NCBI RefSeq assembly: GCF_014200495.1
Contig: NZ_JACHBY010000016.1
Location: forward strand, 1-54,663
Direction of reading: 5' to 3'
Source: Mucilaginibacter geliditolerans
Lineage (GTDB): Bacteria > Bacteroidota > Bacteroidia > Sphingobacteriales > Sphingobacteriaceae
DNA length: 54,663 bases
Positions 3,797 through 50,589 of this stretch are shown here, one piece after another. Below the pieces are notes generated by a model. That model saw nothing but the letters and a program-made list of their open reading frames with translations. It was not told the DNA's origin and did no database searches. Both the position numbers and the translations under genes were made by a program. Position 1 is the stretch's first letter. Every line of letters begins with the position of its first letter.

Positions 3797-3819
3797 AGTG
3801 ATCCCGCTGGGATTCGAAC
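3797..3819 (-). other. Left attachment-site scar: 3' end of tRNA-Lys
   Basis: All 23 bases match 50515-50537 exactly and cover the discriminator base, the acceptor 3' strand and most of the T-arm (core GGGATTCGAAC). Identity stops abruptly on both sides. No D-arm or anticodon arm precedes it, so it is not a tRNA gene. The open reading frame crossing it (3701-3928) is not a protein gene. Confidence 0.75.
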
Positions 3820-3868
3820 ATTGTCCGAAAATCAGCGTTTAAATAGTATCTGGAATGGCTTTGCTTTT

Positions 3869-3921
3869 CTACTCACCGAATTACTCACCATTTGTATGTG
3901 CGTTTTAGCTGCAATTGCTAT
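3869..3921. other. Arm-type repeats inside the left island end
   Basis: CTACTCACCG at 3869-3878, followed by a second TACTCACC, is repeated at the right end as CTACTCACCG plus AACTCAC (50393-50412). Next comes a 21-base stretch (3901-3921, starting CGTTTTAGCTGC) that recurs exactly at 8405-8425. Repeats of this kind near tRNA junctions are candidate integrase arm-binding sites. The 3930-4059 stretch shows no gene. Confidence 0.45.
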
Positions 3922-4059
3922 AGTATAAATATACCTGTTTTAAGTGAGGTTTCAAAATGTTTATGCTGGCTTTTTTACAAGACCAAGTGTAAACTAAAAA
4001 GCGGACAAGACCAAGTGGTAAATTCAAGTTTTGACTGATAGACTTTTAATGTACGGCAT

Positions 4060-4611
4060 TTAGAATTTAAAAGCTACTCCAATGTTTAGAAATGAAAGAC
4101 TTTGGTAACCTAATTCGGCATAGATGGCGGTGCTGGGTTTAAAGTAATATTTGCCCCCGGCAAAAAGGCCAAAACCAAGGCCACTTGCAGTACTGCCCAA
4201 AGAGCCCACATTATCACTTACACTTATTGCAACATAGCCAAGGCTAGCCCCACCATAAAGGTCAAATTTAGGGTCAATGTTAAGTGCCTGATTAAAATGA
4301 TAGGAGCCCCTGGCACCTATATAAATAGCATGCTCTTTAAAGCTGTAAGCATCATTAAAGCCATCATCAAACTTTGAACTTGCATACGATAGCTGACCAC
4401 CGATACTGATTGCATCTGTTATTCCTTTTTCATAACTTATTGATGGATTAATTGGCAGTGATGCCTTATAACCAGAGCCGAAAAAAGGACTGCCTATACC
4501 AACACCAATGTTAAGGAGGTTATCGCCATCGTTAAACGAAGATTTGGTTTGGGCCATCCCTGCGAATGTGGTAAGAATAAATAATGCGATCAGGAATAAT
4601 TGTTTTTTCAC
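4060..4611 (-). CDS. Outer-membrane beta-barrel protein
   Basis: This 183-residue protein has a Sec signal peptide (MKKQLFLIALFILTTFAGMAQ). The rest alternates short amphipathic strands rich in Gly, Tyr and Phe and ends in an aromatic residue (NIGVAFKF), as outer-membrane barrels do. The length suggests about eight strands, like OmpW or OmpA-type small porins. It lies 30 bp downstream of a lipoprotein gene and is probably co-transcribed with it. Both face away from a sensor kinase/response regulator pair. I cannot assign a ligand. Confidence 0.75.
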   Translation of the reverse strand: MKKQLFLIALFILTTFAGMAQTKSSFNDGDNLLNIGVGIGSPFFGSGYKASLPINPSISYEKGITDAISIGGQLSYASSKFDDGFNDAYSFKEHAIYIGARGSYHFNQALNIDPKFDLYGGASLGYVAISVSDNVGSLGSTASGLGFGLFAGGKYYFKPSTAIYAELGYQSLSFLNIGVAFKF

Positions 4612-4641
4612 TTTGTTTGTAGATTTAAGTTTAAAATTTCT

Positions 4642-5049
4642 TTAAAAAGTATAGCTCGTCGGTATTGAAATCCCAAGTCCCGACCCTGTATTGGTTTTCT
4701 TAATTACCCCGTCAACATATATATTCACCGTTATCGTTGATGAGGCACCAGTTCCTGCACCCTCAGCTGCAAAAATTACACTTTCCTGTGATGCGGGGAC
4801 AGTTATTTCGGGACTTGTATAGGTAGTGGCATTAAGCCCATTTAGGCTCGTTTGGTCACCCTGGGCGTCAGTATAACTAACTCCATCAATGACTGCTCCA
4901 TTTGTCGCCGTGGCTTTATAGATAATTTTATGACTGGTGCTGCCCGATGGTTTGTTGTCACTACTTTTGCTGCACGATACCAGTAAGGTTGCAGCCATAA
5001 ATAATGTAAAAATGCTTAGCGTAATGCTTTTTAAGGTAATTGTTTTCAT
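4642..5049 (-). CDS. Small secreted lipoprotein of unknown function
   Basis: The 135-residue product starts with a hydrophobic signal and a clear lipobox (LLVSC, Cys at about residue 26) followed by SKSSDNKPSG, so it should be a lipid-anchored envelope protein. The mature part is rich in Ser, Thr and Gly, with an Ig- or lipocalin-like beta pattern (TVNIYVDGVIKKTNTG). It is the first gene of a probable two-gene operon with the barrel protein downstream, and it has a good Bacteroidota promoter about 32 bp upstream. It resembles the many small Sphingobacteriaceae lipoproteins without a known role. Confidence 0.75.
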   Translation of the reverse strand: MKTITLKSITLSIFTLFMAATLLVSCSKSSDNKPSGSTSHKIIYKATATNGAVIDGVSYTDAQGDQTSLNGLNATTYTSPEITVPASQESVIFAAEGAGTGASSTITVNIYVDGVIKKTNTGSGLGISIPTSYTF

Positions 5050-5080
5050 AGTGTTTATTTAGTCGTCAACATTGATTTCA

Positions 5081-5111
5081 CAAAGTAACTGAACCAAAAA
5101 AGCGCAAACAA
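5081..5111 (-). promoter_or_regulatory. Bacteroidota-type promoter for the lipoprotein/barrel operon
   Basis: Read on the minus strand, TTG (5109-5111) is followed after exactly 20 bases by TTACTTTG (5081-5088). This is close to the TTTG-N19/20-TAnnTTTG consensus. The lipoprotein start codon is about 32 bp further on. Confidence 0.5.
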
Positions 5112-5203
5112 TCGCACTTAACTACTGTTTATTTCTAATGGTTTTCAGGTATTTTTAGCAGTGGGGACCGCGTATCTGGAATAGTTCCATATACTTGTGA
5201 AGT

Positions 5204-7195
5204 ATGGCTCGTTTCTATTTTATATTTTTTTTTCTGATAAACTGTTCGTTATGGTGTAAGGGGCAGAAGTCTGTAAATGAACATGGATTTACAGATAGTC
5301 TTGAGACTGTTTTGCGACAGACAAACTCCGACAGCATAAGGGCGAGAACCAATTTTGCTTTATCAGAATTCTGGGCAGCAAAAGACAGTATCAAAGCATG
5401 GAAATACCTCAATAAAGGCAGGCAATTCAGTGAAAAAAACAGCTATTTACGGGCCCTCTATTATTACTATAATGCCCGGCTGCTCGTTCAAACCAATTGG
5501 GATAAAAGCGAAAAGATTTATATGAAAGCAGATACGCTGTTAAACAGTTTTCAAACAAACGATGCTTATCTTTTCAAAGCTAAAGTATGGTATGAATATG
5601 GAACAGTAAGGCAGAGAAAAGATGATTATAAGGCATTTGCCAACATTTTATTAAACAAGGTTATTCCACTAGCGCTAAAAGCCAATAATAATGTATATGT
5701 TGGCAAAGCCTATTTGGCCTTAGGTATTGTTTTTAAAAATGCCGGTCAATTCGATAAGGCCGAAGTCTATTGTTTAAAGGGTATACAGATTTTAAAAAGT
5801 ACACAGGCATCTTCGGGCGAGTTAATATCAGCCTATCATACCATTGCCGAAAATTATATTTTATCAGGTAAAAGCCCCAAAGCCAGAGCTGCTTTGGATA
5901 GTGCATCGCGTTTACTTACCGAGTATCCTAACTCAGTATATTTACTGAACCATTACGCGGCAGAGGGTATGTTTTTTACCGTGAGCTCCCAATTTAAAAA
6001 AGCGTTGGAAAGCCTGGACAAAGGAGTGGCTCTTGCCAAAAAACTTGGCCTGCGTTATGAAGAACAGCGTCTGCAGTTACAAAGATTTTATGCTTTATAT
6101 AATGACAAAAGTTATGCTGCGGCAAAAATTGTACTGATATACCTGATGAAGCAAAGGGAAATGATGAAGATGGCCACCAACAGGCTTCAGTTATACTACG
6201 GGATGGCCGTGGCAGATCAGGGGATGAAAGACATGATAGGAGCATTTGACTGGCTGAAGCGCTATAGTGAATTAAGTGATAGTGTATCACAAAGCAAGTT
6301 TAAAGACGATATTAATGCCATGGAGATAAAATACCGAAATGCAGAAAATCAAAAAAAAATAGCCATTCTTGAAACAGAGAAACAAAAGGCCACGCTTTCA
6401 GCTAAAAATAGTCGGCTAAATATCTTGCTTTTAGGTACGGCAAGTATCTGTCTATTAATTGTTGCTGCTGCTTCAATATTTTATTACCGCAGTAATAAAA
6501 AGTTGTTTATGCAGAAAGAGATCAACCATCACCAACAGTTAAAGGACCTGGAACAACAGCAAAAACTTACTGTTACCAAAGCCATCCTGACAGGGGAAGA
6601 AAAAGAACGAACCAGAATGGCCCGGGATTTACATGATGGATTAGGGGGTATGTTGGCAGGAGTGAAAATAAACTTGTCGGGTTGGATGGCCAGTCATGAT
6701 GCTAAAAAGCAGGATGCGGAATTGCATCAGATAATTGGCCAGCTTGATCATTCAGTAAGTGAACTCAGGCATATTGCACGTAACATGATGCCCGAAACCT
6801 TACTTCAGTTTGGGTTAGAAACCGCCCTTAAAGATTTATGCGAATCATTGATGACTAAAGATATTCATATAGATTTTCAGACGTTTGGCATTGAAAAAAA
6901 CCTATCGATATCGGCTCAAATAGCCATTTACCGGATTATACAGGAAATTATGGCTAATGCTATTCGCCATGCTCAGGCCACTAGTATTGTATTGCAGTGC
7001 AGCCAGAATAATACTGTTTTTTTTATAACAGCGGAAGATAATGGGGTTGGGTTCGATACAGGAACATCAAACAAAATGACGGGAATGGGATTGAACAATA
7101 TTAAAAATCGGGTAGATTATTTAAATGGAAAGCTGGATATTACATCAGTAATTAACGAAGGTACCACCATAAACATCGAACTAAATGTTGCATGA
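5204..7195 (+). CDS. TPR-containing sensor histidine kinase (NarL/HisKA_3 type)
   Basis: The 663-residue protein has a signal peptide (to about residue 20) and a periplasmic region of tetratricopeptide-like repeats (about 50-330, such as GKAYLALGIVFKNAGQFDKAEVYCLKG). A coiled segment, one membrane helix (about 403-426) and a cytoplasmic kinase follow. The phospho-acceptor is His477 in RMARDLHDGLGGML, typical of HisKA_3. The ATPase has its N-box near AIRHA, then EDNGVGFD and GMGLNNIKNRV. The last 11 bp overlap the response regulator gene, so the two form a translationally coupled pair. It is divergent from the lipoprotein/barrel operon, a likely target. Confidence 0.92.
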   Translation: MARFYFIFFFLINCSLWCKGQKSVNEHGFTDSLETVLRQTNSDSIRARTNFALSEFWAAKDSIKAWKYLNKGRQFSEKNSYLRALYYYYNARLLVQTNWDKSEKIYMKADTLLNSFQTNDAYLFKAKVWYEYGTVRQRKDDYKAFANILLNKVIPLALKANNNVYVGKAYLALGIVFKNAGQFDKAEVYCLKGIQILKSTQASSGELISAYHTIAENYILSGKSPKARAALDSASRLLTEYPNSVYLLNHYAAEGMFFTVSSQFKKALESLDKGVALAKKLGLRYEEQRLQLQRFYALYNDKSYAAAKIVLIYLMKQREMMKMATNRLQLYYGMAVADQGMKDMIGAFDWLKRYSELSDSVSQSKFKDDINAMEIKYRNAENQKKIAILETEKQKATLSAKNSRLNILLLGTASICLLIVAAASIFYYRSNKKLFMQKEINHHQQLKDLEQQQKLTVTKAILTGEEKERTRMARDLHDGLGGMLAGVKINLSGWMASHDAKKQDAELHQIIGQLDHSVSELRHIARNMMPETLLQFGLETALKDLCESLMTKDIHIDFQTFGIEKNLSISAQIAIYRIIQEIMANAIRHAQATSIVLQCSQNNTVFFITAEDNGVGFDTGTSNKMTGMGLNNIKNRVDYLNGKLDITSVINEGTTINIELNVA

Positions 7196-7829
7196 CCAAA
7201 GTAAGGTAACACTCGTAATAGTAGATGACCATCCCATTGTTATCCAGGGTTTAAAAACATTACTGGCAGATGAAACGCGGATTGAGATTACCGGCAGCTT
7301 TACCAATGGATCTGCTATTATTCCCTTTTTACGGGAGCATCAGGTAGATGTAGTTTTATTAGACATTATGCTTCCTGATATGAATGGGGTGGAGTTGTGC
7401 AGGGAAATAAAGATAATTTCTCCCCGTACTTGCGTATTAGCGCTAAGCAATCATACTGAACGAAGCCTAATCATGCAAATTTTACAGAACGGTGCCGGAG
7501 GCTATCTTCTAAAGAATGCGTCTATAGAGGAGTTAATATCATGTATTAACAAAGCCTTAAACGGTGAAGTTGCCTTTAGCAAAGAAGTAGAAGACATTAT
7601 TATGCGCCCTTCACTGAACGACCTCAAAGGAAGGCCTCAATTGACGAAAAGAGAAAAGCAAATATTACAACTCATTGCTGAAGGCAAAACAACGGCTATA
7701 ATGGCCGAAGAGCTTTTTATAAGCCCTTTTACCGTAGAAACCCACCGCAGAAATCTAATACAAAAATTTGAAGTAAACAATGCAGCTGAATTGATTAAGA
7801 TAGCCATACAACAGCAATTATTAACATAA
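7185..7829 (+). CDS. NarL/FixJ-family response regulator
   Basis: The protein has 214 residues. The receiver domain occupies about 9-125, with the acidic pair D14/D15, phospho-acceptor Asp60 in VVLLDIMLPDM and a conserved Lys in GYLLKNAS. The C-terminal LuxR-type helix-turn-helix (about 150-210) shows LTKREKQILQLIAEGKT and SPFTVETHRRNLIQKF. It is encoded directly after, and overlapping, the HisKA_3 kinase, which should phosphorylate it. The 154-bp gap in front of the kinase, shared with the lipoprotein operon, is a plausible binding region (inference). Confidence 0.93.
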   Translation: MLHDQSKVTLVIVDDHPIVIQGLKTLLADETRIEITGSFTNGSAIIPFLREHQVDVVLLDIMLPDMNGVELCREIKIISPRTCVLALSNHTERSLIMQILQNGAGGYLLKNASIEELISCINKALNGEVAFSKEVEDIIMRPSLNDLKGRPQLTKREKQILQLIAEGKTTAIMAEELFISPFTVETHRRNLIQKFEVNNAAELIKIAIQQQLLT

Positions 7830-8302: not shown

Positions 8303-8425
8303 CGGTGCGTAGGGGAATTGAACCTATTGGCTAACTGTCATATTTTTAGCACCTTACAAGCGTCAGCTTTCCGGACTCCACGAATAGCTCACTGTGCTTG
8401 AATACGTTTTAGCTGCAATTGCTAT
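8303..8425. other. Second, degenerate copy of the island-end signature
   Basis: A T-arm-like string (GGGGAATTGAACC, around 8313-8326) is followed about 80 bp later by 21 bases (8405-8425) identical to 3901-3921. Just before that, 8374-8392 resembles the left arm repeats (ACTCC.CGAAT.GCTCAC). The order and spacing mirror the left island end at 3797-3921. It may mark the end of an older or nested insertion. The core does not match tRNA-Lys exactly. Confidence 0.4.
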
Positions 8426-8673
8426 GATATAAATGTAACGATTTTTAAGTATTTTTCAAAATATTTATTTGACAGGATATTATAAGGATAAACGTCAAAC
8501 TAGGCAATTAGAAGTAGATGAGATATCGGCATTGAAAATGCAATAGTTTAGGCCCCGCTGTAAACAATTTAAAATATCTCTCCCCATTGTGAGTTGCGTG
8601 AATTTGAATCTACTTGCCTCATTATTCATTTAATTGAACGTATTTAAATTAAAAAATAAGTATTATTACTATT

Positions 8674-9498: not shown

Positions 9499-9664
9499 CT
9501 CGTCAATACCTCGATAGTTTGGATAAGAAATAAAAAAAGACTGAGCTTAAATTATTGGTTTGCCATCGTGTATTGGTCCTTGCTTGTTTTTTCCTATGGC
9601 GATTTCTTCCATGTACAGCCTCATCCTCCACATCTTTTTTGATGTTTATATGGGTAGGGCTAAT

Positions 9665-10072
9665 TTAGTTGTCAAAGGACTGGTCTATGGTGTCGGGAGA
9701 TAAATGAATACCTCGTGCTAATTCTACGTCTGGCTGATCTTCTGCAAGGCCGGCGCCTGAGTGCATGACTTCTTCTTCCTGATTGCCGTATTTCCATCTG
9801 CACCCGCTCGGCCAGGTTACCGTTCTTCTGCGCATTGGCATACCCAATTGTGTCTTTAAGTTGCATGTCAGACTCAAATAATTTGCTTCGTTCTTGCTGT
9901 TGCGATTAGCCGCTTTTTGAGCGGCGTTTGCTTTTGCTACGGCGGTTTGGACCGCATTGCTTTTTACTTCTGTGGCTGCGCCGTTCTTGGTAGCTGTGCC
10001 ATTTTCATTGTGGAATTCCATTTTAAATGGGTTTAAAGAGTTAAAGAATTTGTTAATTTTTCCCTCCTTCAC
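9665..10072 (-). pseudogene. Unidentified gene, probably frameshifted
   Basis: The frame encodes 135 residues. Residues 1-60 (MEFHNENGTATKNG, then AVAKANAAQKAANRNSK) are Ala/Asn/Lys-rich and look coding. The middle reads better one frame over (QERSKLFESDMQLKDTIGYA then NGNLAERVQMEIRQ), and the end (EEEVMHSGAGLAEDQPDVELARG) returns to the first frame. Two compensating shifts would give a continuous protein of similar length. No family recognised. Between 9499 and 9664 there is only a 25-codon minus-strand frame (MRLYMEEIAIGKNKQG), possibly another fragment. Confidence 0.35.
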
Positions 10073-10799: not shown

Positions 10800-11408
10800 A
10801 TGAAAAAAAGTTTACATGAAGATTATTCTTTGTGGAAATGCTTTATCCACGGTGATGATGATGCATTTGCGTCTATCTATTCGGGGTACATTGATGTTTT
10901 GTATGCATACGGTAAAAGGCACCTTGATGATGAGGATCTTATTCAGGATTGCATACAGGACATGTTCATCGACCTTTGCCAATACAGGGCTAGACTCTCT
11001 CCGGATGTTAATATTAAGTTTTATCTGTTTAGTGTGCTAAAACACCGGATAAACCGCTGCCAAAAAAACATTAAGGTAATTGAGCAGGAAAGCTCATCAT
11101 ATGATTATCAAAGTTCAGGGACTTTTAACTTATGCTTCAGTGCAGAAGAGTCGCTGATACGGGCTGAAGAAACCACCGAATGCCTCAAACCGCTGATCCA
11201 GGAAATGAACCTGTTACCCTCCAGGCAAAAAGAGGTACTTTACCTCAGATTTAACGCCGAACTGGAATATGAGGAAATTGCAGCATTGATGAAAATATCT
11301 GTTTCTTCCTGCCGTACAATGCTATTCCGCGCCGTTAAACAATTGCGGAAAAGGTTAGAAAATTCCCCGGCAAAAAACCTCCTTATGCTGCTGCACATAA
11401 TAATTTGA
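10800..11408 (+). CDS. ECF RNA polymerase sigma factor (FecI-like)
   Basis: The 202-residue protein has sigma-70 region 2 at about 20-90 (DDDAFASIYSGYIDVLYAYGKRHL, then DLIQDCIQDMFIDL) and region 4 at about 135-190 (LLPSRQKEVLYLRFNAELEYEEIAALMKIS). It stands 64 bp upstream of a FecR-type anti-sigma gene, followed by a SusC with an STN signalling domain. That is the standard trans-envelope sigma/anti-sigma arrangement: substrate binding at SusC should release this sigma factor to transcribe the PUL. The ATG at 10800 is the only start that keeps the N-terminal helix. Confidence 0.92.
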   Translation: MKKSLHEDYSLWKCFIHGDDDAFASIYSGYIDVLYAYGKRHLDDEDLIQDCIQDMFIDLCQYRARLSPDVNIKFYLFSVLKHRINRCQKNIKVIEQESSSYDYQSSGTFNLCFSAEESLIRAEETTECLKPLIQEMNLLPSRQKEVLYLRFNAELEYEEIAALMKISVSSCRTMLFRAVKQLRKRLENSPAKNLLMLLHIII

Positions 11409-11472
11409 TTTTTTTTTAATACTTCGTCTATATTCTACTTTTTTTTTACTCTGTATATAAAAGGGCGTTATT

Positions 11473-12642
11473 ATGGATGAAGGCAAAAAAATAAAAGCAG
11501 AAGATATTTTAAGTTCTACTGATCATTTGAAAGACGACTCATCCGCTTCATATGAACAGAAGCAATTAGCTAAAAATATCAAAAATATCATTTCGGCAAC
11601 TGGAAATGAAACCTTGGGCCCGGAAAGAAAAGAAAGGATATGGAATCATATTCTCACTCATTCACCACATTCCGAACCTTCCAAACAAAACACAAAGGCC
11701 CTTAATTTGCGCCGCTGGGCCGCTGTTGCTGCATCTGTTTTATTAATCGTTTCCATAGGCTTGTATCTACGCGGACATTATTCAACCATCACCGGTCGGC
11801 AGTTAGCAAACCGTCTGGTCAAGCCCTATAAAAATGATGTGCTGCCTGGCGGGAACAAAGCCGTGTTGACTTTGGCCAATGGTTCCAGGATCATATTAGA
11901 CAGTGCCAAAAACGGATTATTGACCAGCCAGGGCGAAACGAAAATTAGTAAAACGTCCAAAGGACAGATCGCATATCACCAGAACTTAGCCTCATCCGCA
12001 CCTGCACAAATGAACAGTATCAAAACACCCCGTGGTGGTCAATATGAAATCATTTTGCCCGACGGCACTAAAGCCTGGCTTAATGCTGCATCTTCCCTGC
12101 ATTTTCCTACAGCATTTACTGGTAACGAAAGACATGTGCAGATGACCGGTGAGGTTTACTTCGAGGTTGCAAAAAATAAACACATACCTTTCAAAGTGAA
12201 TGTTAATGGTACTGTAGTAGAGGTATTAGGAACTCATTTTGACATTAAAGCTTATGATGACGAGAAAGAAATGAAAACTACTCTTTTGGAGGGATCTGTT
12301 AAGGTCAGCAAAAATGCGACCCTTGTATTCCTGGTGCCAGGGCAACAGGCTTTGGTCAATAATACGTCCGGTGAGATCAATGTACAACAAGCGAATATAG
12401 ATGCTGTAATGGGCTGGCAAAAAGGCATATTCATTTTTAAAGGAGAAAATATCCAAAGCATCATGAGGGACGTTTCCCGATGGTATGATGTGGATATTGC
12501 CTATGAAGGTGATTTTACCAACCAGGTTTTCTCAGGGAGGATATCCCGTTTTAAAAATATTTCCGACGTATTGAACTTATTGGAATTAACAGAGGACGTC
12601 CACTTTAAAATTGAAGAAAGGAGGGTCTCCGTTATGCCTTAG
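11473..12642 (+). CDS. FecR-family anti-sigma factor
   Basis: The 389-residue protein has a cytoplasmic N-terminus (about 1-75) that should hold the sigma factor and one membrane helix (about 77-98, WAAVAASVLLIVSIGLYLRG). The periplasmic FecR domain follows (about 180-275: TPRGGQYEIILPDGTKAWLN, then VQMTGEVYFEVAKN and FKVNVNGTVVEVLGTHFDIKAY). A C-terminal DUF4974-like domain (about 315-385, MRDVSRWYDVDIAYEG) is expected to contact the STN domain of SusC. It sits between the sigma factor and SusC genes on the same strand. Confidence 0.93.
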   Translation: MDEGKKIKAEDILSSTDHLKDDSSASYEQKQLAKNIKNIISATGNETLGPERKERIWNHILTHSPHSEPSKQNTKALNLRRWAAVAASVLLIVSIGLYLRGHYSTITGRQLANRLVKPYKNDVLPGGNKAVLTLANGSRIILDSAKNGLLTSQGETKISKTSKGQIAYHQNLASSAPAQMNSIKTPRGGQYEIILPDGTKAWLNAASSLHFPTAFTGNERHVQMTGEVYFEVAKNKHIPFKVNVNGTVVEVLGTHFDIKAYDDEKEMKTTLLEGSVKVSKNATLVFLVPGQQALVNNTSGEINVQQANIDAVMGWQKGIFIFKGENIQSIMRDVSRWYDVDIAYEGDFTNQVFSGRISRFKNISDVLNLLELTEDVHFKIEERRVSVMP

Positions 12643-16269: not shown

Positions 16270-16287
16270 CAATTAATCAGATTCAAC

Positions 16288-17771: not shown

Positions 17772-17921
17772 ACACAAAAATGATCACCTATGCAGCGCGT
17801 CTTATAGGCAATATCTTTATATTACCATTATCAACCTACTCAGCAGTTTTTGGCGCAGGTTGCTTAGCAAGATTTGTTGTTAAAATAAATACTCAACAGA
17901 ACAGTGAACTACATCCAAACC

Positions 17922-19280: not shown

Positions 19281-19380
19281 AAAATATTAAAATGGCCAAA
19301 AGATCAGTTAATTTTTATGGGGACAGTGTTTTAGTGCACTATGGCAGCACTTATCGCCAAGTTCTAAATTATTACGTTAA

Positions 19381-23443: not shown

Positions 23444-23499
23444 AGCCTATCAAAATGGCCAAGTTGAAAAATAACCTAATAAAATATATACTGAGAAAA

Positions 23500-33836: not shown

Positions 33837-33879
33837 TTTTTAACAATTTAGCTTAAAAATAAAAACTCGGTTAACTATT

Positions 33880-34073: not shown

Positions 34074-34160
34074 TAAAAAGCTTTGTTATTTATTTTTCAT
34101 CCGCATAAGCAATTACTTTTCCATTCATTATTACTTTTCGATCCACTGTCAACATCACTA

Positions 34161-37594: not shown

Positions 37595-37619
37595 ATCTAT
37601 TTTATAGTTAATTATAGTT

Positions 37620-40766: not shown

Positions 40767-40844
40767 TGTTTTTTAAATTAGAATTCGATTAATAATTGGG
40801 TGTGTTATAGGTTTGTTTGATATAGGTTTATTGGCATTCTTTGA

Positions 40845-41783: not shown

Positions 41784-44700
41784 TTATTGCTTATTTTTTT
41801 TCAGGGCCAAATTGCCATTGAGGTTTAAATTGGAAATGAAGGCTTTTCGATATTTTCTGATAAATTCAGAAGGGTTCATCTCAAATAATTTATGAAACTG
41901 TTCTCTGAAATATCTGACATCCTGGATTCCGATCCTGTATGCGACTTCTTTGATTTGCAAATCGGTTGATATCATAAGCTCGGCGGCTTTTCTTAGCCGG
42001 ATATACCTGACGAATTCACTGTTAGAAAGTCCTGATATCGATTTGATCTTACGGAAAAGCTTGGCACGGCTCATGCCTATCTCTTCCGTAAACGTTTTTA
42101 TAGAAAATTGTTCATCATCCAAGTGATCTTCGATAATGGCTATACATCTGGAAAGAAAATCGCTATATTCTGCAGGTATTTTTAAACTATTATTTTTTAA
42201 GGTGATCTCATTGAAAAAATAGTCTTTTAATATCGTACGTCCTTTTAGAAGACTTTTTATCCTGGCGATCAGTAAATCGCTTTCGAACGGTTTGGTAATA
42301 TAATCATCAGCCCCGCATTCAATTCCCTTAAGCTTTATTTCGGGAGAGGAGCTTCCGGTCAGCAAAATGATAGGGATATGGCTGAATGAGGGAGAATCCT
42401 TCATTGTAGAACAGAATTCTACCCCGGTAGTTCCATTCATGATCACATCACATACGATGATATCTGGTTCGTTTTCAAGGATGATCTCTAAACCTTTTTC
42501 AGTATTTCCGGCCTCCGAAATAATAAAGGCATCTCTTAAAAGGTGTTTGATGTAATTTCGCATTTCTGCATCGTCATCTATTATAAGAATAATAGGTCTT
42601 TTATTTACAACCCCATCCAATATTTCTTCAACATGCTTCTTTTCAGATGATTCCCCCCTAAAATTGTCATTATCCCCATCAGTGATGATCTCTTTGATCA
42701 GTGGCAATGTTTTAGAGATGTAATGGTTATTAACAGAATTCACCAGATTCTCATGAGCAAGCGGTAAAATGATTTTAAAAGTCGTTCCCTTATTCTCTAC
42801 GCCCGAGTACGAAATTTCTCCATGATGAAGGTCCACGAATTTCTTAGCAAGAAACAGACCTATACCAAAGCCACTTTTCTCTACCGTTTCAGTTTCATGT
42901 GGTAACCGGTAAAATTTCTCAAACAGTTTCTGTCCGGTGTCTTCGGGTATTCCGCAACCGGTATCAGAAACAAGTATTTCTGCATTTTTAGCTGAAACAG
43001 CTATCGTAACCATTACAGCCCCATTTTTGGGTGTGAATTTTATTGCATTGGAGATCAGATTGAACAAAATTATTTCCAGCTTTTCCCGGTCCGCCCATAT
43101 AGTGATGGCGTTATCCGGCGCAAGGAATTGATAATCTATATCGTTGCTTTTTACCTGGTTGTTAAAACACAGAAAAACTTCATAGCATACTTCCTTTAGA
43201 TTTAGTGGCGCTGGGTTCAATGCCGATACCTCATTTTCTGAGCTCCTGAATAAAAGTAGCTGGTCAACAAGGCTGAGTAATCTTCTCGAATTCCTGTAAA
43301 TCGAACTAATATCGATCAGATCCAGGTTTGCACCATTATTTTGAAGCAGGTATTTTATCGGGTTAACGATCAAGGTCAACGGCGCACGCAATTCATGGGA
43401 TATATTCGTAAAAAAAGCGATTTTCTTTTCATTTACCTCCTCGACAAGTTTTACCTCATAGCGCAGTTCTGTTTGTTTTTGATGATAGAAAATATAGCCA
43501 TAAATAGCTGCAACGACAAAGGCAAGGTATAAAATATAGGCCCACCAGGTTCTATACCAAGGGGGTAAGATGTGTATATTTAAAGCCACCTCTTGTTTAC
43601 TCCACGATCCCCCAGCATTTGTACACTTTACCCTGAAGATATAGTTGCCGGCATCAAGGTGGGTATAGTTTGCAGTGCGAATATTTCCCGAATAGGTCCA
43701 GTTGTGGTCCCAGTTTTCCATCATATAGGCATACCTTATTTTATCAGGAGCGGTATATTCGAGCGCCGCGAAATCGAGAGCAATCACGGCCTGATTATAA
43801 GGCACCTCGATTTTTTTGATCTCATCCGGTGTATATTGCTTCACCAGTGAAGAGTTTTTTTCCAATACAGTATTGTTGACGGCAATTCCGGATAAAACAA
43901 GTTCCGGTTCACCAGTGAGGTCGACAATCTTTTTGGGAAAAAAACGGCTCAATCCGCTGATCCCGCCAAATACAAGTTCACCTGAACTTAGCCGGACGGA
44001 AGAATTATAGTGAAACTGGTTGCTCTGAAGTCCGTCACTCTTGTAGTAATTCTTAAAGATTTTGGCTACGGGGTCAAATTTAGATAACCCATAAAATGTG
44101 CTTAGCCATAAATCTCCCTTATCGTCCTCCTGTATATTCAAAACGGAGTTATTACACAGACCGTTTTCCGTTGAATACCGTGCTGCTATTCTGGAATTAT
44201 CACGGTCAAATAATACAAGTCCACCTCCCTCTGTACCAATCCAGAAACGCTTTTCACGATCTTCATAAATAACCCTTATATAATAACCCAAATCTGAAAA
44301 TTTATGTCGGCGGTTTTTCCTGTCTATTTGTACCAGTTGGGTAAGCATGCCCGCCCAAAGCCGACCCTCATTGTCGGGTTTAAGCGTAAAAATATCGGAA
44401 AGATTGGTGTCAAAAGCTTTAAATTGATCCCTAGTCTTGTCCAGTAAGTATAATGCGCCATTTATACCATTGCCCTTATGAGTTCCTATCCAGATATCAT
44501 CATTTTTATCTTTACAAATTGTAGAGATCGTTTTATTTTCAATAAGCGATAGCGGATTTATACAGCGGTAATGCTGAAAGGAATTGGCCGATCTGTTGAA
44601 TCTGTTTACCCCATTAAAAAAAGTGCCCACCCATATGTTTCCTTCGTTGTCACCTGTGATGGTTGATACAATATTATCGCTAAGCGATCTTGGATTTCCT

Positions 44701-45893
44701 TCTTCATGATCATACGCTCGCAAATTGCTCTGATTTTTGTTCCATACCAATATACCGCCGCCGTCCGTACCTATCCATAGATCATGGTTAATATCTTCAT
44801 ATAACGCGTATATAGGTTTGTTGGGTAAAGAATGCGGGTTAGATGGGTCGTGGGCCATCGTTTTGAATCTGTCTGGCTGAGGGTTAATAATATTAATTCC
44901 CCCGTAGAGTTCACCTACCCATACCCTGGAGTCTTTATCCTGGTAAATGCAATAGGCAGCATCATTGGACAGTGCGCTGGAACCATTTTCTTTTTTAAGA
45001 TAAGTGACTTTCCTGGTGGTAGTATCATATTTGTTAACTCCTGCGCCGTTAATGGCCAGCCATAACAGACCGTTGTGGTCAAAAACCATATCCGCAACCG
45101 TGTTCAAGGAAAGCCCGGTATTTTTATCAAGTATTTTTTCAGTTTTTCCAAAATGCCGGTCGTACCGGAACACACCGTCAGCTGTCCCTATCCATATTTT
45201 TCCATCTTTACTAGGTTCAATGCAAAAGGCATTCCGGATAGCGTCAGTCAGAATTGTCAGCTTACCACGATCTCTATTTAGTAAACAAAGGCCTACTTGC
45301 GGAACGAATACCCAGGTATTGCCTGCTATATCCGATTTGATTGCCTGAACGTCATAATTCCAGATATCGCCTAAAGCCGTCTTTATAGGGATTTGCTTTG
45401 CTACAGCGGCCTTCTGATCCTTAACAAGCAACCCAACACCCAAAGTTCCCAATAGCATGCCACCGCCCAGTTCCGCTTTAACTATTCTTACCCCAACAGT
45501 TATCCTTTTTTTTGGGGTGTTGTTGTGATCCATATAATAGACCGCAGAAAAATTGCCGGAAAGATTATTGTATATACTCGCGCCTTCATGTGTTCCGACC
45601 CACATATTGGATTCCCGGTCTTCTGCGATTGAAAATATATAATTATTGCCCAGTGAACTGGTATCATTGATTTTGTTCCTGAATACCTTAAAACTATAGC
45701 CATCGTACCTATTAAGTCCATCAAAGGTGCCAAACCACAAAAAGCCTTTATGGTCCTGGAAAATACACCTTACAGCATTATTGGACAACCCTTGATCGAT
45801 ACCCACGTAGGAAAGCGACTGGGCAGGAGACCGGGTACAATACAGCAATGTAATGCAGATCATTATAAAAAGATGTGATACTTTCCTTTCCAT
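41784..45893 (-). CDS. Hybrid two-component system sensor/regulator (HTCS)
   Basis: This 1369-residue membrane protein combines all parts of a two-component system. It has a signal peptide (to about 25) and Reg_prop propeller repeats (about 30-690, such as DHKGFLWFGTFDGLNRYDG). A Y_Y_Y domain ending LPPWYRTWWAY precedes one membrane helix (about 785-805). The histidine kinase has His833 in FFTNISHELRAPL, with NAIKFTPKNGAV and DTGCGIPED. The receiver has Asp1149 in IIVCDVIMNG, and a C-terminal AraC helix-turn-helix contains KEVAYRIGIQDVRYFREQF. It should bind an oligosaccharide in the periplasm and switch on the adjacent sigma-SusCD-enzyme genes. Confidence 0.97.
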   Translation of the reverse strand: MERKVSHLFIMICITLLYCTRSPAQSLSYVGIDQGLSNNAVRCIFQDHKGFLWFGTFDGLNRYDGYSFKVFRNKINDTSSLGNNYIFSIAEDRESNMWVGTHEGASIYNNLSGNFSAVYYMDHNNTPKKRITVGVRIVKAELGGGMLLGTLGVGLLVKDQKAAVAKQIPIKTALGDIWNYDVQAIKSDIAGNTWVFVPQVGLCLLNRDRGKLTILTDAIRNAFCIEPSKDGKIWIGTADGVFRYDRHFGKTEKILDKNTGLSLNTVADMVFDHNGLLWLAINGAGVNKYDTTTRKVTYLKKENGSSALSNDAAYCIYQDKDSRVWVGELYGGINIINPQPDRFKTMAHDPSNPHSLPNKPIYALYEDINHDLWIGTDGGGILVWNKNQSNLRAYDHEEGNPRSLSDNIVSTITGDNEGNIWVGTFFNGVNRFNRSANSFQHYRCINPLSLIENKTISTICKDKNDDIWIGTHKGNGINGALYLLDKTRDQFKAFDTNLSDIFTLKPDNEGRLWAGMLTQLVQIDRKNRRHKFSDLGYYIRVIYEDREKRFWIGTEGGGLVLFDRDNSRIAARYSTENGLCNNSVLNIQEDDKGDLWLSTFYGLSKFDPVAKIFKNYYKSDGLQSNQFHYNSSVRLSSGELVFGGISGLSRFFPKKIVDLTGEPELVLSGIAVNNTVLEKNSSLVKQYTPDEIKKIEVPYNQAVIALDFAALEYTAPDKIRYAYMMENWDHNWTYSGNIRTANYTHLDAGNYIFRVKCTNAGGSWSKQEVALNIHILPPWYRTWWAYILYLAFVVAAIYGYIFYHQKQTELRYEVKLVEEVNEKKIAFFTNISHELRAPLTLIVNPIKYLLQNNGANLDLIDISSIYRNSRRLLSLVDQLLLFRSSENEVSALNPAPLNLKEVCYEVFLCFNNQVKSNDIDYQFLAPDNAITIWADREKLEIILFNLISNAIKFTPKNGAVMVTIAVSAKNAEILVSDTGCGIPEDTGQKLFEKFYRLPHETETVEKSGFGIGLFLAKKFVDLHHGEISYSGVENKGTTFKIILPLAHENLVNSVNNHYISKTLPLIKEIITDGDNDNFRGESSEKKHVEEILDGVVNKRPIILIIDDDAEMRNYIKHLLRDAFIISEAGNTEKGLEIILENEPDIIVCDVIMNGTTGVEFCSTMKDSPSFSHIPIILLTGSSSPEIKLKGIECGADDYITKPFESDLLIARIKSLLKGRTILKDYFFNEITLKNNSLKIPAEYSDFLSRCIAIIEDHLDDEQFSIKTFTEEIGMSRAKLFRKIKSISGLSNSEFVRYIRLRKAAELMISTDLQIKEVAYRIGIQDVRYFREQFHKLFEMNPSEFIRKYRKAFISNLNLNGNLALKKNKQ

Positions 45894-46186: not shown

Positions 46187-46426
46187 TTATTCGTAGCTTA
46201 TAGTACCGAAATAGATAAAGCGGGAAACTTTTTTTGCGTACAACTCATATTCTTTTCCATATCTTTTCAAGAGTTGTTTCTCTTCAACAGTAATCGAAAC
46301 GATTGCGCTTGAAACAACTACTAAAACAAGAAAAATCAGCAGAAAGTAAGACTGAAAAAAAATGTTTCTCCAAGAAGAATGAAATAAATGCCTACCTAAC
46401 TGTGGATTGCAAAGCTTAGCATACAT
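46187..46426 (-). pseudogene. 3' fragment of an isoprenylcysteine methyltransferase-like membrane protein
   Basis: The 79-codon frame has one strong membrane helix (YFLLIFLVLVVVSSAIVSI) followed by VEEKQLLKRYGKEYELYAKKVSRFI. The EExxLxxxxGxxYxxYxxxVxRFI pattern is the C-terminal signature of the ICMT/PEMT-like methyltransferases. The N-terminal helices and the SAM-binding segment are missing, so only the end of the gene remains. Confidence 0.55.
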
Positions 46427-46605
46427 TCCATACGTGACTAATTTATTTGGTTCTGCTTTCAGGAAAATTATTTTGTTATTAATCTGGAGATTACGAGATG
46501 GTTAACCAGCAGATTCCGTGCGCGATAGAGTACCTATTAGTGTAGGAGATGAAGTTAAATTGTAATTAGCAATCAATAATCTAACATGGTCAAAGTGTAA
46601 CGGAA

Positions 46606-46836
46606 TTACCTGTACGACATTTTCAGAATAAGCTGGTCAAGGATTCCATATTTTCCAGCATGATAGAGTAAATGCTCGTTGCGCTGAACATAGCCAAGCT
46701 GATTGGTCAGCAATTTTGTATGACCTATTTTAAACTCAGGAATATTTTGGTGATGATGTCCGTAAATCCAATAATCCGGCGTGTTATCCAAAATCAAATC
46801 ATCTAATATCGTTGCAAAAACTTTGCGCTTCTTCAT
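46606..46836 (-). pseudogene. 3' fragment of a calcineurin-like metallophosphoesterase
   Basis: The 76 codons contain PDYWIYGHHHQNIPEFKIGHTKLL and TNQLGYVQRNEH. The GHHHxN motif is the last metal-binding box of the calcineurin-like phosphoesterase fold, and the NQLGY ending is typical of small bacterial members. The earlier metal-binding boxes (DxH, GDxxD, GNH) are absent, so the protein cannot be active. Confidence 0.65.
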
Positions 46837-46892
46837 TATTATAGATAATAACGCTGATAAAACTCGTAGGTACTTTTAAGCGCCTATCCATT

Positions 46893-47057
46893 TCAAAACA
46901 ATTCCTGGTTCAGCCGGTAGCGGTGTATCAACAGCCGGAAATCATCGTGATGATCAATGCGGCAGACAAAACGCTCGCAAAGAGAAAATGTAATGTGTAG
47001 CTCATGGTTTACAACGGGTATATGAAGCGCTTTGGCAAAGGCTTTCAAAAATTTAAA
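46893..47057 (-). pseudogene. Unidentified coding remnant
   Basis: Fifty-odd open codons on the minus strand (FKFLKAFAKALHIPVVNHEL, then HITFSLCERFVCRIDHHDDF) end at TGA 46893-46895. Composition is coding-like and no start codon is present. I do not recognise the family. It fits the run of 3' gene fragments in this stretch. Confidence 0.3.
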
Positions 47058-47169
47058 TTACGGCTGGGTAACGAACGCTATTAAAATTTAAGTGTCTATT
47101 TCATAATAGCAACCAATCTATATTAGTAAAAGAGCTGGGATATAAGCTGCCCAGCTTTTTTACTAACAC

Positions 47170-47772
47170 TTATTTAAATTGTCCAAATGTTGGAATAATG
47201 TCTTCCAAAAGAATTTGAAGAAGTTTTCCGCCATCTTCGCTTTCCCATCTGTCAGTCAATTCGGTAACTAATTGATTGATAACGTTAGTACGTACACCAT
47301 ATTTTTCCCAGGTAGCTCTGGCAACATCATCCGCAATTTCAGTCGGAGAACCTCCTGCGTCAATCACAACCTGTACATCGAATCCTTCCTCAACCATGGA
47401 AATTGATGGATAAACAATACAAACATCGTTTGTAAGTCCAGCCATAATCACGTTTTTGCGCCCATCCGCAGCTTTTAAAACTGCCGCTTTGAAATTCTGG
47501 TCATCCCAGGCATTGGTAATTCCGGTTCTTTTTACCCGGTTAGCGTATTGTTCCGGTAATATTTCCTGTAATTCAGGAAGTGTTTGTCCCTGCATATGAT
47601 CTTCCATACTGGTGGTAAGCACAATAGGCATGTTCAGAGCCTTTCCAATTTTAGCCAATGCTTTTGCGCGGCTGATGATCATTTCCTTTGGCCGGTTGGT
47701 GGCCATGGTAATAGTTCCTACCTGGTGATCGATCAATAAGATGATCGTGTCATCTTTTTTAAAATGTTTCAT
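47170..47772 (-). CDS. Isochorismatase-family cysteine hydrolase (YcaC-like)
   Basis: The 200-residue protein shows the isochorismatase-like triad: Asp in ILLIDHQVGT, a Lys/Arg near RVKRTGITNAW and the nucleophile Cys in MAGLTNDVCIVYPS, followed by the conserved VVIDAGGSPT. YcaC-type members have this length and layout but no firmly known substrate. It is the last gene of a three-gene minus-strand cluster after a cupin protein (82 bp) and a DUF1772 membrane protein. The cluster is divergent from an AraC regulator, which suggests a small inducible detoxification or catabolic operon. Confidence 0.9.
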   Translation of the reverse strand: MKHFKKDDTIILLIDHQVGTITMATNRPKEMIISRAKALAKIGKALNMPIVLTTSMEDHMQGQTLPELQEILPEQYANRVKRTGITNAWDDQNFKAAVLKAADGRKNVIMAGLTNDVCIVYPSISMVEEGFDVQVVIDAGGSPTEIADDVARATWEKYGVRTNVINQLVTELTDRWESEDGGKLLQILLEDIIPTFGQFK

Positions 47773-47854
47773 AGGTTTTTTAAAGTTAATATTGATATTA
47801 TAGTTAAAGTATTCCCTGTAATAATTGTCTATTTAGATATGTTTAGTCACCGGG

Positions 47855-48361
47855 TTATTTTTTATCAAGAAAATTCGGTGGGTAAACTATTTGTCCGTGC
47901 TTTTGCGCGATTGCCTGCAATTTTTTTATGGATTCAGGATCCATTGGCGGCGGGGGAAGAAATTCGCCAGCGGCCACAGGCTCACCTATTTCTTCAAAGA
48001 ACTCTTCCAGCCCAGCAGGGACAACTGTACAAAGCAAATGAGCTAACTTATCGCTTGCATTTTTAAAATAATGCACTACACCGCCTTCTGGTATTACCAC
48101 AAAGGAACCTTTTTTTGCCGTATATGATCCGGCTTCAGAATGGACCTCCACCTCACCATCGATGATATAAAAGGATTCATAGAAATTGGCATGTGAATGT
48201 GGCCCAGGGCCGCTTTGAGGAGGTATCAGCATGTCAATTGTGGAAAAGGCCCCATTAGTTTGCTTGCCTGATACAAGTACACGGTAATTGTCGCCTACTA
48301 CTGATAATATTTCCCCGCCCTTCGGGTCGACCGTTATTGGCGCTGGTTTTAAATTTTCCAT
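47855..48361 (-). CDS. Single-domain cupin protein
   Basis: The 168-residue protein has both cupin motifs: GPGPHSHANFYESFYIIDGEVEV (metal-binding His, His and Glu) and SFVVIPEGGVVHYFKNASD (second motif His). Before this lies a strand-rich segment (VVGDNYRVLVSGKQTNG). Proteins of this shape are dioxygenases, isomerases or sugar/quercetin-binding proteins; the activity is not readable from sequence. It lies 38 bp after the DUF1772 gene and before the isochorismatase-type hydrolase. Confidence 0.87.
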   Translation of the reverse strand: MENLKPAPITVDPKGGEILSVVGDNYRVLVSGKQTNGAFSTIDMLIPPQSGPGPHSHANFYESFYIIDGEVEVHSEAGSYTAKKGSFVVIPEGGVVHYFKNASDKLAHLLCTVVPAGLEEFFEEIGEPVAAGEFLPPPPMDPESIKKLQAIAQKHGQIVYPPNFLDKK

Positions 48362-48399
48362 ATTGATGTTTGTTTTGTATAAAAATTTGTTTTTTTCTA

Positions 48400-48864
48400 C
48401 TAAAATAATTTGAGGTACAGTGCTGTGAAAATTAAAAAACTTAACAGCGAAATAAGTGTTCTAATATCATTGTAAAATTGCCAGCGCTTTCTTATATCTT
48501 TCCAGTTTAAAGGCGCTGATTCTGTTGTCCAGCTTATAATCTTATTGTTCATAGGTACCTCAATCAATACGGTGATCAGTAATGCTGATATAATCAAAAG
48601 AATCGAACATGGATATAAAAGAAATTCTACAAAACCTTTTTGAGGAAATAACCAGGCACTCAGGATCATCAGAATAATACAAGGAATGGAAATTATTCGC
48701 ATGGAAACTCCAAGATTGCGATTAATAATTTGTGCAATGTGGACGAATTCACTTAGCGGAAATTCATGGAAAGAACGGCCAATGGAAAGCCAGGAACCCC
48801 AGAACACGCCTGATAATAAAAATAGAAGACTGAGTGCCGCAAATTGAGTTATATAAAATGCCAT
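48400..48864 (-). CDS. DUF1772 (anthrone oxygenase-like) membrane protein
   Basis: The 154-residue protein has four predicted membrane helices: AALSLLFLLSGVFWGSWLS, IISIPCIILMILSAWLF, FLLYPCSILLIISALLI and TLISLLSFLIFTALYL. The segment VPMNNKIISWTTESAPLNW with RKRWQFYNDIRT before the last helix is characteristic of DUF1772, the family that includes fungal anthrone oxygenases. It is the first gene of the operon, with a 229-bp divergent gap to the AraC gene. Confidence 0.8.
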   Translation of the reverse strand: MAFYITQFAALSLLFLLSGVFWGSWLSIGRSFHEFPLSEFVHIAQIINRNLGVSMRIISIPCIILMILSAWLFPQKGFVEFLLYPCSILLIISALLITVLIEVPMNNKIISWTTESAPLNWKDIRKRWQFYNDIRTLISLLSFLIFTALYLKLF

Positions 48865-49093
48865 TTACTTAAAATTAAAGTAGATCCGTCTTACTTTAAA
48901 AATAGGTCAACTACAAAGGATTGGCAAGACAAAAGAATAGTCGGAAAAATCGTTATATGTGGTTTTTTTTGGAAAATAGTCCATTTGGTCGCAAAATGAT
49001 TATTTTTAAACGAGCACAATTACTCATTTAAAATTTAATAGTAATAAAGGGCCATCAAGTTTGAATCATAAGTTAACAGGACCCAATAGCATT

Positions 49094-50089
49094 ATGCCGA
49101 TCGAATTCGAATTTAAAGTCAGGAAAAATTATCATTTCATAACAGCCTTTGCCAGTCACTTTAACGCAGTTGTAAAAGGTGACAAGGTATATCTTCCCGA
49201 CTGTTTGGGAGATGGATATATTCAGCAAATCTACCTTGACGGTATGGCCCTTTTTATTCATAACTATAAATTAAAACAGGAGCTAATCTTAAAGCGGCAA
49301 CCAACTACTACGAATGAAAGCATTACGATAAAATTTGATCGGTCAAAATATTTATCAAAATACAGTCAGCAGGATTATGACCCATTTTCTGATCAATTAC
49401 CAGAATTTGAAGTTGAGATGGCAACATCTAATTTCTATGCGGAACTAACGATACCTGAAAATAAGCAAATCAATTTCCTCATAATCGGCACTTCAAGAAG
49501 CTACTTAATCGACTTACTTAAATCAGAAAAATCGTATACAATATTGGATTTGGTTAAGACACATCCTTCATTTGTCATCCATGAGCTAATTAGGCCTGAA
49601 ATGGATGGTATGCTAAAGCAGATAATTCAGGTAAATGAGACTACTGAATTACCTATGTTACTTTATAAAACTAAAGCACATGAGTTGATCTATTATCTTT
49701 TTAAAAGCTTATTTAAACGCCCTATCAACGTACCAGTTAATATTAAACGGGAAGACGCCGAGAAAATTTATTTAGTTCGCATTGCCCTGCTCAGAGATTT
49801 TAGTAAATGTCCGCTGCTCCCCGAGCTTGCGGAGATGTCAGGGTTAGGTTTAACTAAACTACAAAAGCTGTTTAGCCAGATATTTGGACAAAGTATTCAT
49901 AATTATTACCAAACTGTGCGAATGATGCAAGCATGCAGCCTGCTTACTCATCTTTCTGTATCTGAGACTGGCCACAAACTGGGCTTTACCAATCTCAGTC
50001 ATTTTACGAGGTTATTTGAAAAACATCATCAAATAAAACCAAAACATTTTAAAAACCGCTTGATTAGCGAATCTAATTACACGGAATAG
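49094..50089 (+). CDS. AraC-family transcriptional regulator
   Basis: I prefer the ATG at 49094 to a TTG 33 bp upstream. The 331-residue product has an N-terminal ligand-binding part without a clear cupin signature (about 1-220) and a typical AraC DNA-binding domain at the end (LPELAEMSGLGLTKLQKLF, then SVSETGHKLGFTNLSHFTRLF and IKPKHFKNR). It is divergent from the DUF1772-cupin-isochorismatase operon, whose expression it likely controls. It is also the last intact gene before the tRNA-Lys end of the island. A TTTGG with a TATTTTTA-like box around 48984-49010 may be its promoter. Confidence 0.88.
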   Translation: MPIEFEFKVRKNYHFITAFASHFNAVVKGDKVYLPDCLGDGYIQQIYLDGMALFIHNYKLKQELILKRQPTTTNESITIKFDRSKYLSKYSQQDYDPFSDQLPEFEVEMATSNFYAELTIPENKQINFLIIGTSRSYLIDLLKSEKSYTILDLVKTHPSFVIHELIRPEMDGMLKQIIQVNETTELPMLLYKTKAHELIYYLFKSLFKRPINVPVNIKREDAEKIYLVRIALLRDFSKCPLLPELAEMSGLGLTKLQKLFSQIFGQSIHNYYQTVRMMQACSLLTHLSVSETGHKLGFTNLSHFTRLFEKHHQIKPKHFKNRLISESNYTE

Positions 50090-50148
50090 TCCTTTTTGAT
50101 TGAGCTCTATGCTGTTTACTTTTATTGTTTTTCCTATAATCGCAAAAT

Positions 50149-50186
50149 CGAAAAGTATAAATTTATAAAACGAAAAGTATAAATTT
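50149..50186. repeat. Two-copy direct repeat beside the integrase remnant
   Basis: CGAAAAGTATAAATTT occurs at 50149-50164 and again at 50171-50186, separated by ATAAAA (22-bp period). It lies in the decayed part of the integrase region. Confidence 0.6.
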
Positions 50187-50206
50187 TGAGCTTTTGTGAA
50201 AACCAG

Positions 50207-50266
50207 GCCCTTGATGTAGTTTTTTTGCTTCTTCATGTAAAAAAGCAGACTGAAATTAGTTTTCAT
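50207..50266 (-). pseudogene. Tyrosine recombinase (integrase), first 20 codons only
   Basis: The minus-strand frame from 50266 begins MKTNFSLLFYMKKQKNYIKG. This matches the highly conserved opening of Bacteroidota tyrosine recombinases with an Arm-DNA-binding domain (MKTNFSLLFYLKKPKNYxxG, then PIYLRITVNG). After this the frame (to 50012) becomes a low-complexity string unlike any integrase and overlaps the AraC gene. The start lies about 250 bp from the tRNA-Lys 3' end and reads away from it, the usual place for an integrase of a tRNA-targeting element. The catalytic domain is gone. Confidence 0.65.
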
Positions 50267-50367
50267 AATAAACTGATTAAAAGGTTAACAAAAGTAGCCT
50301 TACAGTCTAAAAACGTCAAGATGTTCAATTATTGAACTTGTTGTATAACAGATAGTTACACTTGATT

Positions 50368-50412
50368 CGGTGAGTAAACAGCCTTCTTAAAACTACTCAC
50401 CGGATAACTCAC
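50368..50412. other. Arm-type repeats inside the right island end
   Basis: CGGTGAGTA (50368-50376) is the exact reverse complement of TACTCACCG (50394-50402), with 17 bases between. A second ACTCAC follows at 50407-50412. The CTACTCACCG part matches the left end (3869-3878) in the same orientation. Candidate integrase arm-binding sites. Confidence 0.45.
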
Positions 50413-50459
50413 TTTTTTTATGCGAACCGGCGCATATTTTGGGGTCTGTCTAAAAGACA

Positions 50460-50492
50460 AAAAGCCTGCAATCATTTGATTTGCAGGCTTTT
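50460..50492 (-). terminator. Intrinsic terminator of tRNA-Lys, supplied by the island
   Basis: AAAAGCCTGCAA (50460-50471) and TTGCAGGCTTTT (50481-50492) form a 12-bp stem with a 9-nt loop. On the minus strand it ends in TTTT and lies 24 bp past the tRNA 3' end. Its sequence differs from the terminator beyond the left fragment (3740-3765), as expected if the element replaced the original one. Confidence 0.85.
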
Positions 50493-50516
50493 AAACGAAT
50501 TTGATACTCTGATAAG

Positions 50517-50589
50517 TGATCCCGCTGGGATTCGAACCCAGGACCCCAACATTAAAAGTGTTATGCTCTACCAGCTGAGCTACGGAATC
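50517..50589 (-). tRNA. tRNA-Lys (anticodon UUU)
   Basis: The 73-nt cloverleaf on the minus strand has acceptor GATTCCG pairing with CGGGATC (one G-U), discriminator A, D-arm GCTCAGCTGGTAGAGC, anticodon stem TAACA/TGTTG around loop CTTTTAA (anticodon TTT) and T-arm with GGTTCGAATCC. CCA is not encoded. The 3' 21 bases of the gene lie within the 23-bp direct repeat that bounds the island. Confidence 0.96.

Follow-up and report, generated by a model that had tools for sequence, protein, structure and literature searches.

The 54,663-nt window analyzed here is an entire contig (C16) of the Mucilaginibacter geliditolerans genome (6.5 Mb in 26 contigs) and contains an island of 46,718 bp, measured from core start to core start of its bounding repeat, at a tRNA-Lys(UUU) gene. 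This island is very probably an integrative mobilizable element (IME) in a state of decay, whose present make-up is that of a cis-mobilizable element (CIME) and which carries two polysaccharide utilization loci (PULs) with SusC and SusD genes (SusCD loci) as its cargo. We compared it with a "sister" island in the same genome and with a genus set of 149 genomes, own genome included; the own genome is coded G000, and relatives, contigs, and loci have G, C, and L numbers, respectively. The ends of the island and the relics of its mobility genes are as follows:

3675..3796, minus strand: outer left flank, a terminator module resembling the right end of the L007-type element class at tRNA-Lys ("L007-type" is our name, after a locus of the own genome, for an integrase that differs from the sister type)
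3797..3819, no strand: attL core, 23 bp that duplicate the tRNA-Lys 3' end (repeat search and family geometry)
3871..3888, plus strand: left pair of arm-type sites, ACTCACCGAATTACTCAC (18-bp pair, 51 bp from the attL core)
8366..8468, plus strand: another, decayed version of the left end, its arm sites mutated (local score 75; highest score among 300 shuffles, 37)
9566..9887, minus strand: MobB-family relaxase (DUF5712) of which a C-terminal part remains, broken by one frameshift plus one stop (tblastn match to the L267 relaxase, 2e-34)
50207..50266, minus strand: integrase stub (tblastn 7e-6; 18 of 20 residues match the start of the sister integrase)
50369..50412, no strand: right arm-type sites (GGTGAGT at 50369, ACTCACC at 50395, ACTCAC at 50407)
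ca. 50460..50492, minus strand: terminator-like hairpin of the element, adjoining the tRNA (read by eye; common to the sister and relatives)
50515..50537, no strand: attR core within tRNA-Lys (repeat search and family geometry)
50516..50589, minus strand: intact tRNA-Lys(UUU), the insertion target

The two 23-bp cores are identical, and neither strand of the window holds a third copy, just as a sequence-only reading of this DNA had proposed. A genome-wide search with 3797–3990 gave the attR core as the sole second copy among the matches listed, and we estimate the chance of an exact 23-mer pair in 54.7 kb at about 2e-5. The terminators expected at both borders are likewise present, one as a hairpin with a T-rich side outside attL (arms 3731–3750/3755–3774) and the other, the proposed replacement terminator, as the hairpin beside the intact tRNA. 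Arm-type sites (ACTCACC/GGTGAGT) lie at both island ends, and positions 50216–50492 share 74% DNA identity with the right end of the sister island. The integrase start that the same reading had seen facing away from the tRNA is real, but integrase homology stops after about 20 codons and the remainder of the gene is absent, leaving no working integrase; PF00589 matches eight times in the own genome and never on C16. With its MKTNFSLLFY-type integrase start, terminator, and arms, the right end nonetheless shows all right-end traits of the element family described below.

Besides itself and the inner copy (8405–8468), the left island end matches C1:303336–303404 of the own genome, the corresponding end of the sister island, which lies at tRNA-Ser(UGA) (C1 ca. 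303260–333000, ca. 29.7 kb; L046, L109, and L047). The sister shares the arm sites and terminator of the window and encodes its integrase in an uninterrupted 439-aa frame with Arm-DNA-bind, SAM-like, and catalytic domains (Pfam), whereas its repeat core is a tRNA-Ser end, unlike the tRNA-Lys core of the window. Relatives of this integrase at 96% to 98% identity are found in 4 other genomes. When the sister and the 29 loci nearest its integrase are taken together, 18 lie at tRNA-Ser, 9 at tmRNA, and 3 at sites without a called RNA gene, and by eye 29 of the 30 follow the order of RNA 3' end, terminator, two opposed arm sites, and integrase start (the exception is L179, for which the wrong open reading frame [ORF] was shown); variant arms or terminators occur in some of them. 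The arm pair ACTCACCGAATTACTCAC is present with at most one mismatch in 74 of the 149 genomes, own included, and its reversed control in none.

For a comparison across the family, we assembled 21 elements, i.e., the window, the sister, and 19 candidates from relatives that were chosen partly through integrase matches. An RNA-gene repeat lies 50 to 60 bp ahead of the left arm pair in 17 of these 19 as well as in the sister and the window. Because the left-end geometry is thus the same in the sister and 17 of 19 others, the bounded DNA is best read as a tRNA-targeting integrative element with PUL cargo, as the sequence-only reading had suggested. Other members of the family range from 2.9 to 56 kb, and one long integrase frame is present in 17 of the 19 elements from relatives. 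A MobB-type relaxase together with BfmA was found in 4 of the 19, with BfmA alone in the G094 element. The cargo of the sister (10 ORFs, Pfam) includes a sensor kinase, a tricorn-like protease, a beta-lactamase-family protein, an FAD oxidoreductase, two short-chain dehydrogenases, and an AraC regulator, and the sister island has no SusC or SusD match.

The relaxase remnant of the window covers the last third (residues 210–316 of 316) of the L267 relaxase, which is assigned to families PF18976 and NF041495. Ten other genomes have 77% to 81% DNA identity to this stretch, with genes viewed for L267 only, and no transfer family was detected among the 35 window ORFs scanned with Pfam. The island has kept attL and attR, with 23-bp cores and arm sites at both ends, while its integration gene is reduced to a stub and its transfer genes to a frameshifted relaxase scrap, so that it has neither the integrase nor the relaxase of a functional IME. 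Because of the relaxase remnant and the related relaxases in family elements, we read the island as a dead mobilizable element with retained att sites, i.e., a CIME. That it is dead in cis had escaped the sequence-only reading. The scraps of mobility genes suggest a long decay. Beside the relaxase scrap, positions 10090–10400 are G+C-rich with short similarities in other genomes and could be an old transfer-origin region.

Several observations weigh against this interpretation. The window is the only case of tRNA-Lys as a target of the family, which elsewhere uses tRNA-Ser, tRNA-Arg, and tmRNA, although this target range is a usual rather than a defining trait. Of the 30 loci counted above, the sister included, not one was assigned to tRNA-Lys, and among relatives whose tRNA-Lys surroundings we viewed (65, with the gene present in 60) the family terminator was found within 160 nt of the gene, allowing up to 3 errors, in 0 of 60. 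An integrase does lie at tRNA-Lys in G055 (L144), and the sister's is its best match among seven integrases of the own genome, yet the printed end has neither the family terminator nor the arms. Two of the 19 elements, those of G094 and G120, fail the geometry in the automatic test; a tRNA-Arg core is seen by eye at roughly the right distance in G094, while G120 stands outside the geometry with no RNA gene and no integrase match found in the element. The G+C content of the island (0.407) is not distinct from its surroundings. The relaxase scrap, which lies inward of the inner decayed left end, may stem from an element older than the outer borders. No empty site was found, since 1–3796 is joined to tRNA-Lys in none of the 26 relatives searched for it; the sequence-only reading had looked to a relative joining 1–3796 directly to the sequence after 50537, and none of the 26 does. 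Finally, the DNA searches with the PULs scored only 2 candidates per genome, so that a co-linear copy could be missed and all figures from them hold among the matches listed.

That reading had also taken the end features to fit one insertion event, but a clean single insertion into the chromosome is not supported. The inner decayed left end and the foreign element end outside attL argue for accretion at tRNA-Lys. Positions 3675–3811 share 89% identity with G104 C301, where they lie beside a tRNA-Lys fragment, and 3682–3819 share 77% identity with G110, where they lie directly beside an intact tRNA-Lys that is followed by an L007-type integrase. Judged by these matches, 3675–3796 is probably the relic end of an earlier element rather than pristine chromosome. 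A single clean insertion of a PUL island into an unaltered chromosome, with 3740–3765 as the original tRNA-Lys terminator, is unlikely in our view. It does draw on the finding that a 3740-type terminator adjoins an intact tRNA-Lys in 8 of the 60 relatives, which bears out a weaker form of the earlier prediction, and 3 of these 8 lack GGTGCC/GGCACC repeats beyond the terminator and may leave room for a chromosomal terminator. The other 5, however, have such repeats on the left side of the terminator, an arrangement like that of element ends; among them is G110 with its integrase, and the inner left end exists. Moreover, none of the matches listed for 1–3472 in the 26 relatives comes closer to the tRNA-Lys flank gene than about 29 kb; the nearest are those of G113, 29 kb away on the other side, and G044, about 77 kb away downstream, and the best (G147, 89% to 90%) is on a different contig from the flank gene. 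A right-end module that would belong to the inner left end was sought at 7700–8400, and nothing there scored above shuffles. We do not claim an inner tRNA fragment at 8304–8324, which has no second genome copy at up to 3 mismatches and a weak core alignment, reached by 11 of 1,000 shuffles.

We compared up to 20 kb beyond tRNA-Lys for 47 loci in relatives. No gene there is shared widely, and integrases form the most populous ORF cluster (12 loci); a long tyrosine-integrase frame starts within 353 nt of the tRNA-Lys start at 13 of the 47 loci, 12 of them in one cluster and the thirteenth in G055. Judging from these loci, the tRNA-Lys site is an insertion hotspot. Loci L114, L118, L121, and L141 share a block beyond the tRNA, which in L141 includes a SusC-like and a SusD protein (Pfam). 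Directly beyond the tRNA-Lys of L114 (G023) lies what looks by sequence like a serine-recombinase ORF, and the site may serve recombinases of different types. Two nearby tRNA-Lys(UUU) genes are present at the site in 14 of the 60 relatives (e.g., L034, L039, and L041), possibly left by an element with its own tRNA copy. L105, the G104 locus with the tRNA-Lys fragment (G104:C301), represents another element at the same hotspot; the genes next to the fragment look like a PRTRC-type set. At L014 of G147, the second-nearest relative, a hairpin of another type (CCTGTAAAT) and a single GGTGAGT come after tRNA-Lys and may mark a further decayed end. The end of our contig (54120–54663) matches several places in G147 C232 (L045), and this repeat family may have broken the assembly.

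The island could also be still mobile in trans, with the sister integrase or another acting on its retained cores and arms, which we regard as quite improbable. The sister does encode an uninterrupted enzyme whose start is common with the stub, and arm sites are in place at both island ends, but the cores of the two islands differ, no sister-integrase locus was called at tRNA-Lys, and the decayed mobility scraps fit a long-standing loss of movement.

Between its ends, the island carries the following genes, as annotated by Pfam scans with NCBIfam as a second library:

4060..7829: beta-barrel protein (minus strand), small protein without Pfam match (minus strand), and sensor histidine kinase with LuxR-type response regulator (plus strand) (Pfam)
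10800..12642, plus strand: PUL1 extracytoplasmic function (ECF) sigma factor and FecR-type anti-sigma factor (Pfam)
12778..17724, plus strand: PUL1 SusC and SusD (Pfam; NCBIfam agrees for SusC)
17904..27056, plus strand: PUL1 glycoside hydrolases (GHs), comprising GH63/MGH1-like, GH95, a GH78-type N-terminal fragment (22156–22584), GH43, and an alpha-L-arabinofuranosidase ("GH51-type", our own label)
27215..35660, minus strand: PUL2 enzymes, comprising GH2, GH2 (GalB-type), ROK protein, and GH28 (Pfam, NCBIfam)
35762..41432, minus strand: PUL2 SusD, SusC, and ECF sigma factor (Pfam)
41784..45893, minus strand: PUL2 hybrid two-component sensor/regulator (Pfam)
46187..50089: short ORF remnants followed by isochorismatase-like, cupin, anthrone-oxygenase-like (minus strand), and AraC-type regulator (plus strand) genes

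Both SusCD sets have SusC next to SusD along with degradative enzymes and a regulator, as PULs are defined. The sequence-only reading had described two complete PULs in opposite orientation with different control, and orientation and control indeed differ, with ECF sigma factor and FecR in PUL1 versus a hybrid two-component regulator plus ECF sigma factor in PUL2. However, PUL1 is not fully complete because its GH78-type gene is cut to the N-terminal domain. GH28, GH2, GH43, GH51-type, and GH95 enzymes are compatible with pectin, and the predicted substrates of the PULs are probably pectin side chains; by NCBIfam, one GH2 of PUL2 scores above the GalB cut-off, and the GH28 matches stay below theirs. 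A GH35-like fragment at 23159–23440 was dropped for want of a Pfam match. Of the galacturonate locus that had been proposed in the left flank, uxaA is supported by Pfam, but the GH105-type gene was dropped as well, given that the partial ORF at 1–318 has no Pfam match at E 0.01.

Among the matches listed in the 149 genomes, those of more than 1 kb reach at most 75% identity to PUL1 or PUL2, although stretches below 200 bp reach 78%. The nearest relative by flank gene, G037 (87%, matched at the right flank only), has no blastn match to the island in 116 kb around its tRNA-Lys. Taken together, these comparisons suggest that the PULs were gained horizontally. That the repeat is a chance leftover tRNA fragment and the PULs are long-standing chromosomal loci would agree with the frequency of these gene families in the genus, where gene-scale matches mostly have 65% to 75% DNA identity, but it is extremely improbable in view of the structures that mark the island ends (arm sites, terminator, integrase stub, and family geometry) and of G037 without the island.

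A second PUL-bearing member of the family inserted at tRNA-Arg(CCU) in G022. This 39.6-kb element carries a xyloglucan-type PUL (L286, G022:C1:612000–631900) with SusC, SusD, a xyloglucan-binding surface protein, two GH5 enzymes, GH97, GH2, a hybrid regulator, and a partial fucosidase, and it is one of the two exceptions to a single long integrase frame, its integrase being split into two frames, which a sequencing error could also explain. Clear SusC plus SusD were found in 2 of the 21 elements, the window and G022, by a phmmer search with few queries that further ones may have escaped; two weak SusC matches (40 and 24 bits) were left uncounted. Both SusC/SusD-bearing elements thus have broken integrases, but such an association of PUL cargo with dead integrases is a lead only, as the elements were picked partly by their integrase matches.

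From these observations we infer the following course of events and chemistry of integration for the island as a decayed IME. The ancestral element, a member of the genus-wide family, would have carried an integrase and probably a MobB relaxase, with the family integrase predicted to bind the ACTCACC/GGTGAGT arm sites. Recombination with the tRNA-Lys 3' end would have rebuilt the tRNA and brought in the element's own terminator, and two SusCD loci, with pectin side chains as their probable substrate, would have arrived with the insertion. The inner decayed left end and the foreign element end indicate that the same tRNA-Lys received more than one insertion, and later deletion of the integrase and the relaxase would have fixed the cargo in place. 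A much broader scenario, in which PULs across the genus are spread by tRNA- or tmRNA-targeting mobilizable elements, locked by integrase loss, and shuttled in trans by related integrases once stranded, appears doubtful to us.

The window offers one case in which the vehicle is dead and the catabolic cargo is kept, a fossil-like view of gene gain in blocks. The end signature, i.e., a tRNA or tmRNA 3' repeat, 50 to 60 bp, and ACTCACCGAATTACTCAC, is searchable and could serve to find co-acquired gene blocks including PULs. Block-wise PUL gain thereby becomes testable by counting cargo and decay over a defined element family.

CIMEs are described in a passage of PMC5704250 as elements that retain attL and attR and have lost their integration and transfer genes. 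As far as its sequence goes, the island resembles them in exactly these respects and in the signs of accretion at one tRNA; unlike described CIMEs, its cargo is two SusCD loci. The same source lists NBU1, NBU2, and Tn6031 as Bacteroidetes IMEs with tyrosine integrases at tRNA 3' ends (Leu, Ser, and Pro), NBU1 and NBU2 with a MobP relaxase. Going by this description rather than by sequence, the window family is similar in inserting at tRNA 3' ends, but it uses tRNA-Ser, tRNA-Arg, tmRNA, and here tRNA-Lys with arm sites of its own, and the window copy is dead. In the open-access literature, we found no paper that joins "polysaccharide utilization locus" with "cis-mobilizable" (subscription papers lie outside this scope). 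PULs on mobile elements are noted in a passage of PMC13188876, where NBU2 integration at tRNA-Ser is used to move PULs, and a survey of gut mobile genetic elements (MGEs) reports 5219 MGEs with 47 SusC/SusD loci on them (PMC6907783). By description, again, our island is like these PUL-bearing MGEs of gut Bacteroidetes in having SusC/SusD on an integrative element and unlike them in combining two opposed loci in one island of an element family from another genus. Both mobile elements with PULs and IMEs that target tRNA genes are therefore known already; our analysis adds the present element family, its end signature, and the finding that the window copy is dead.

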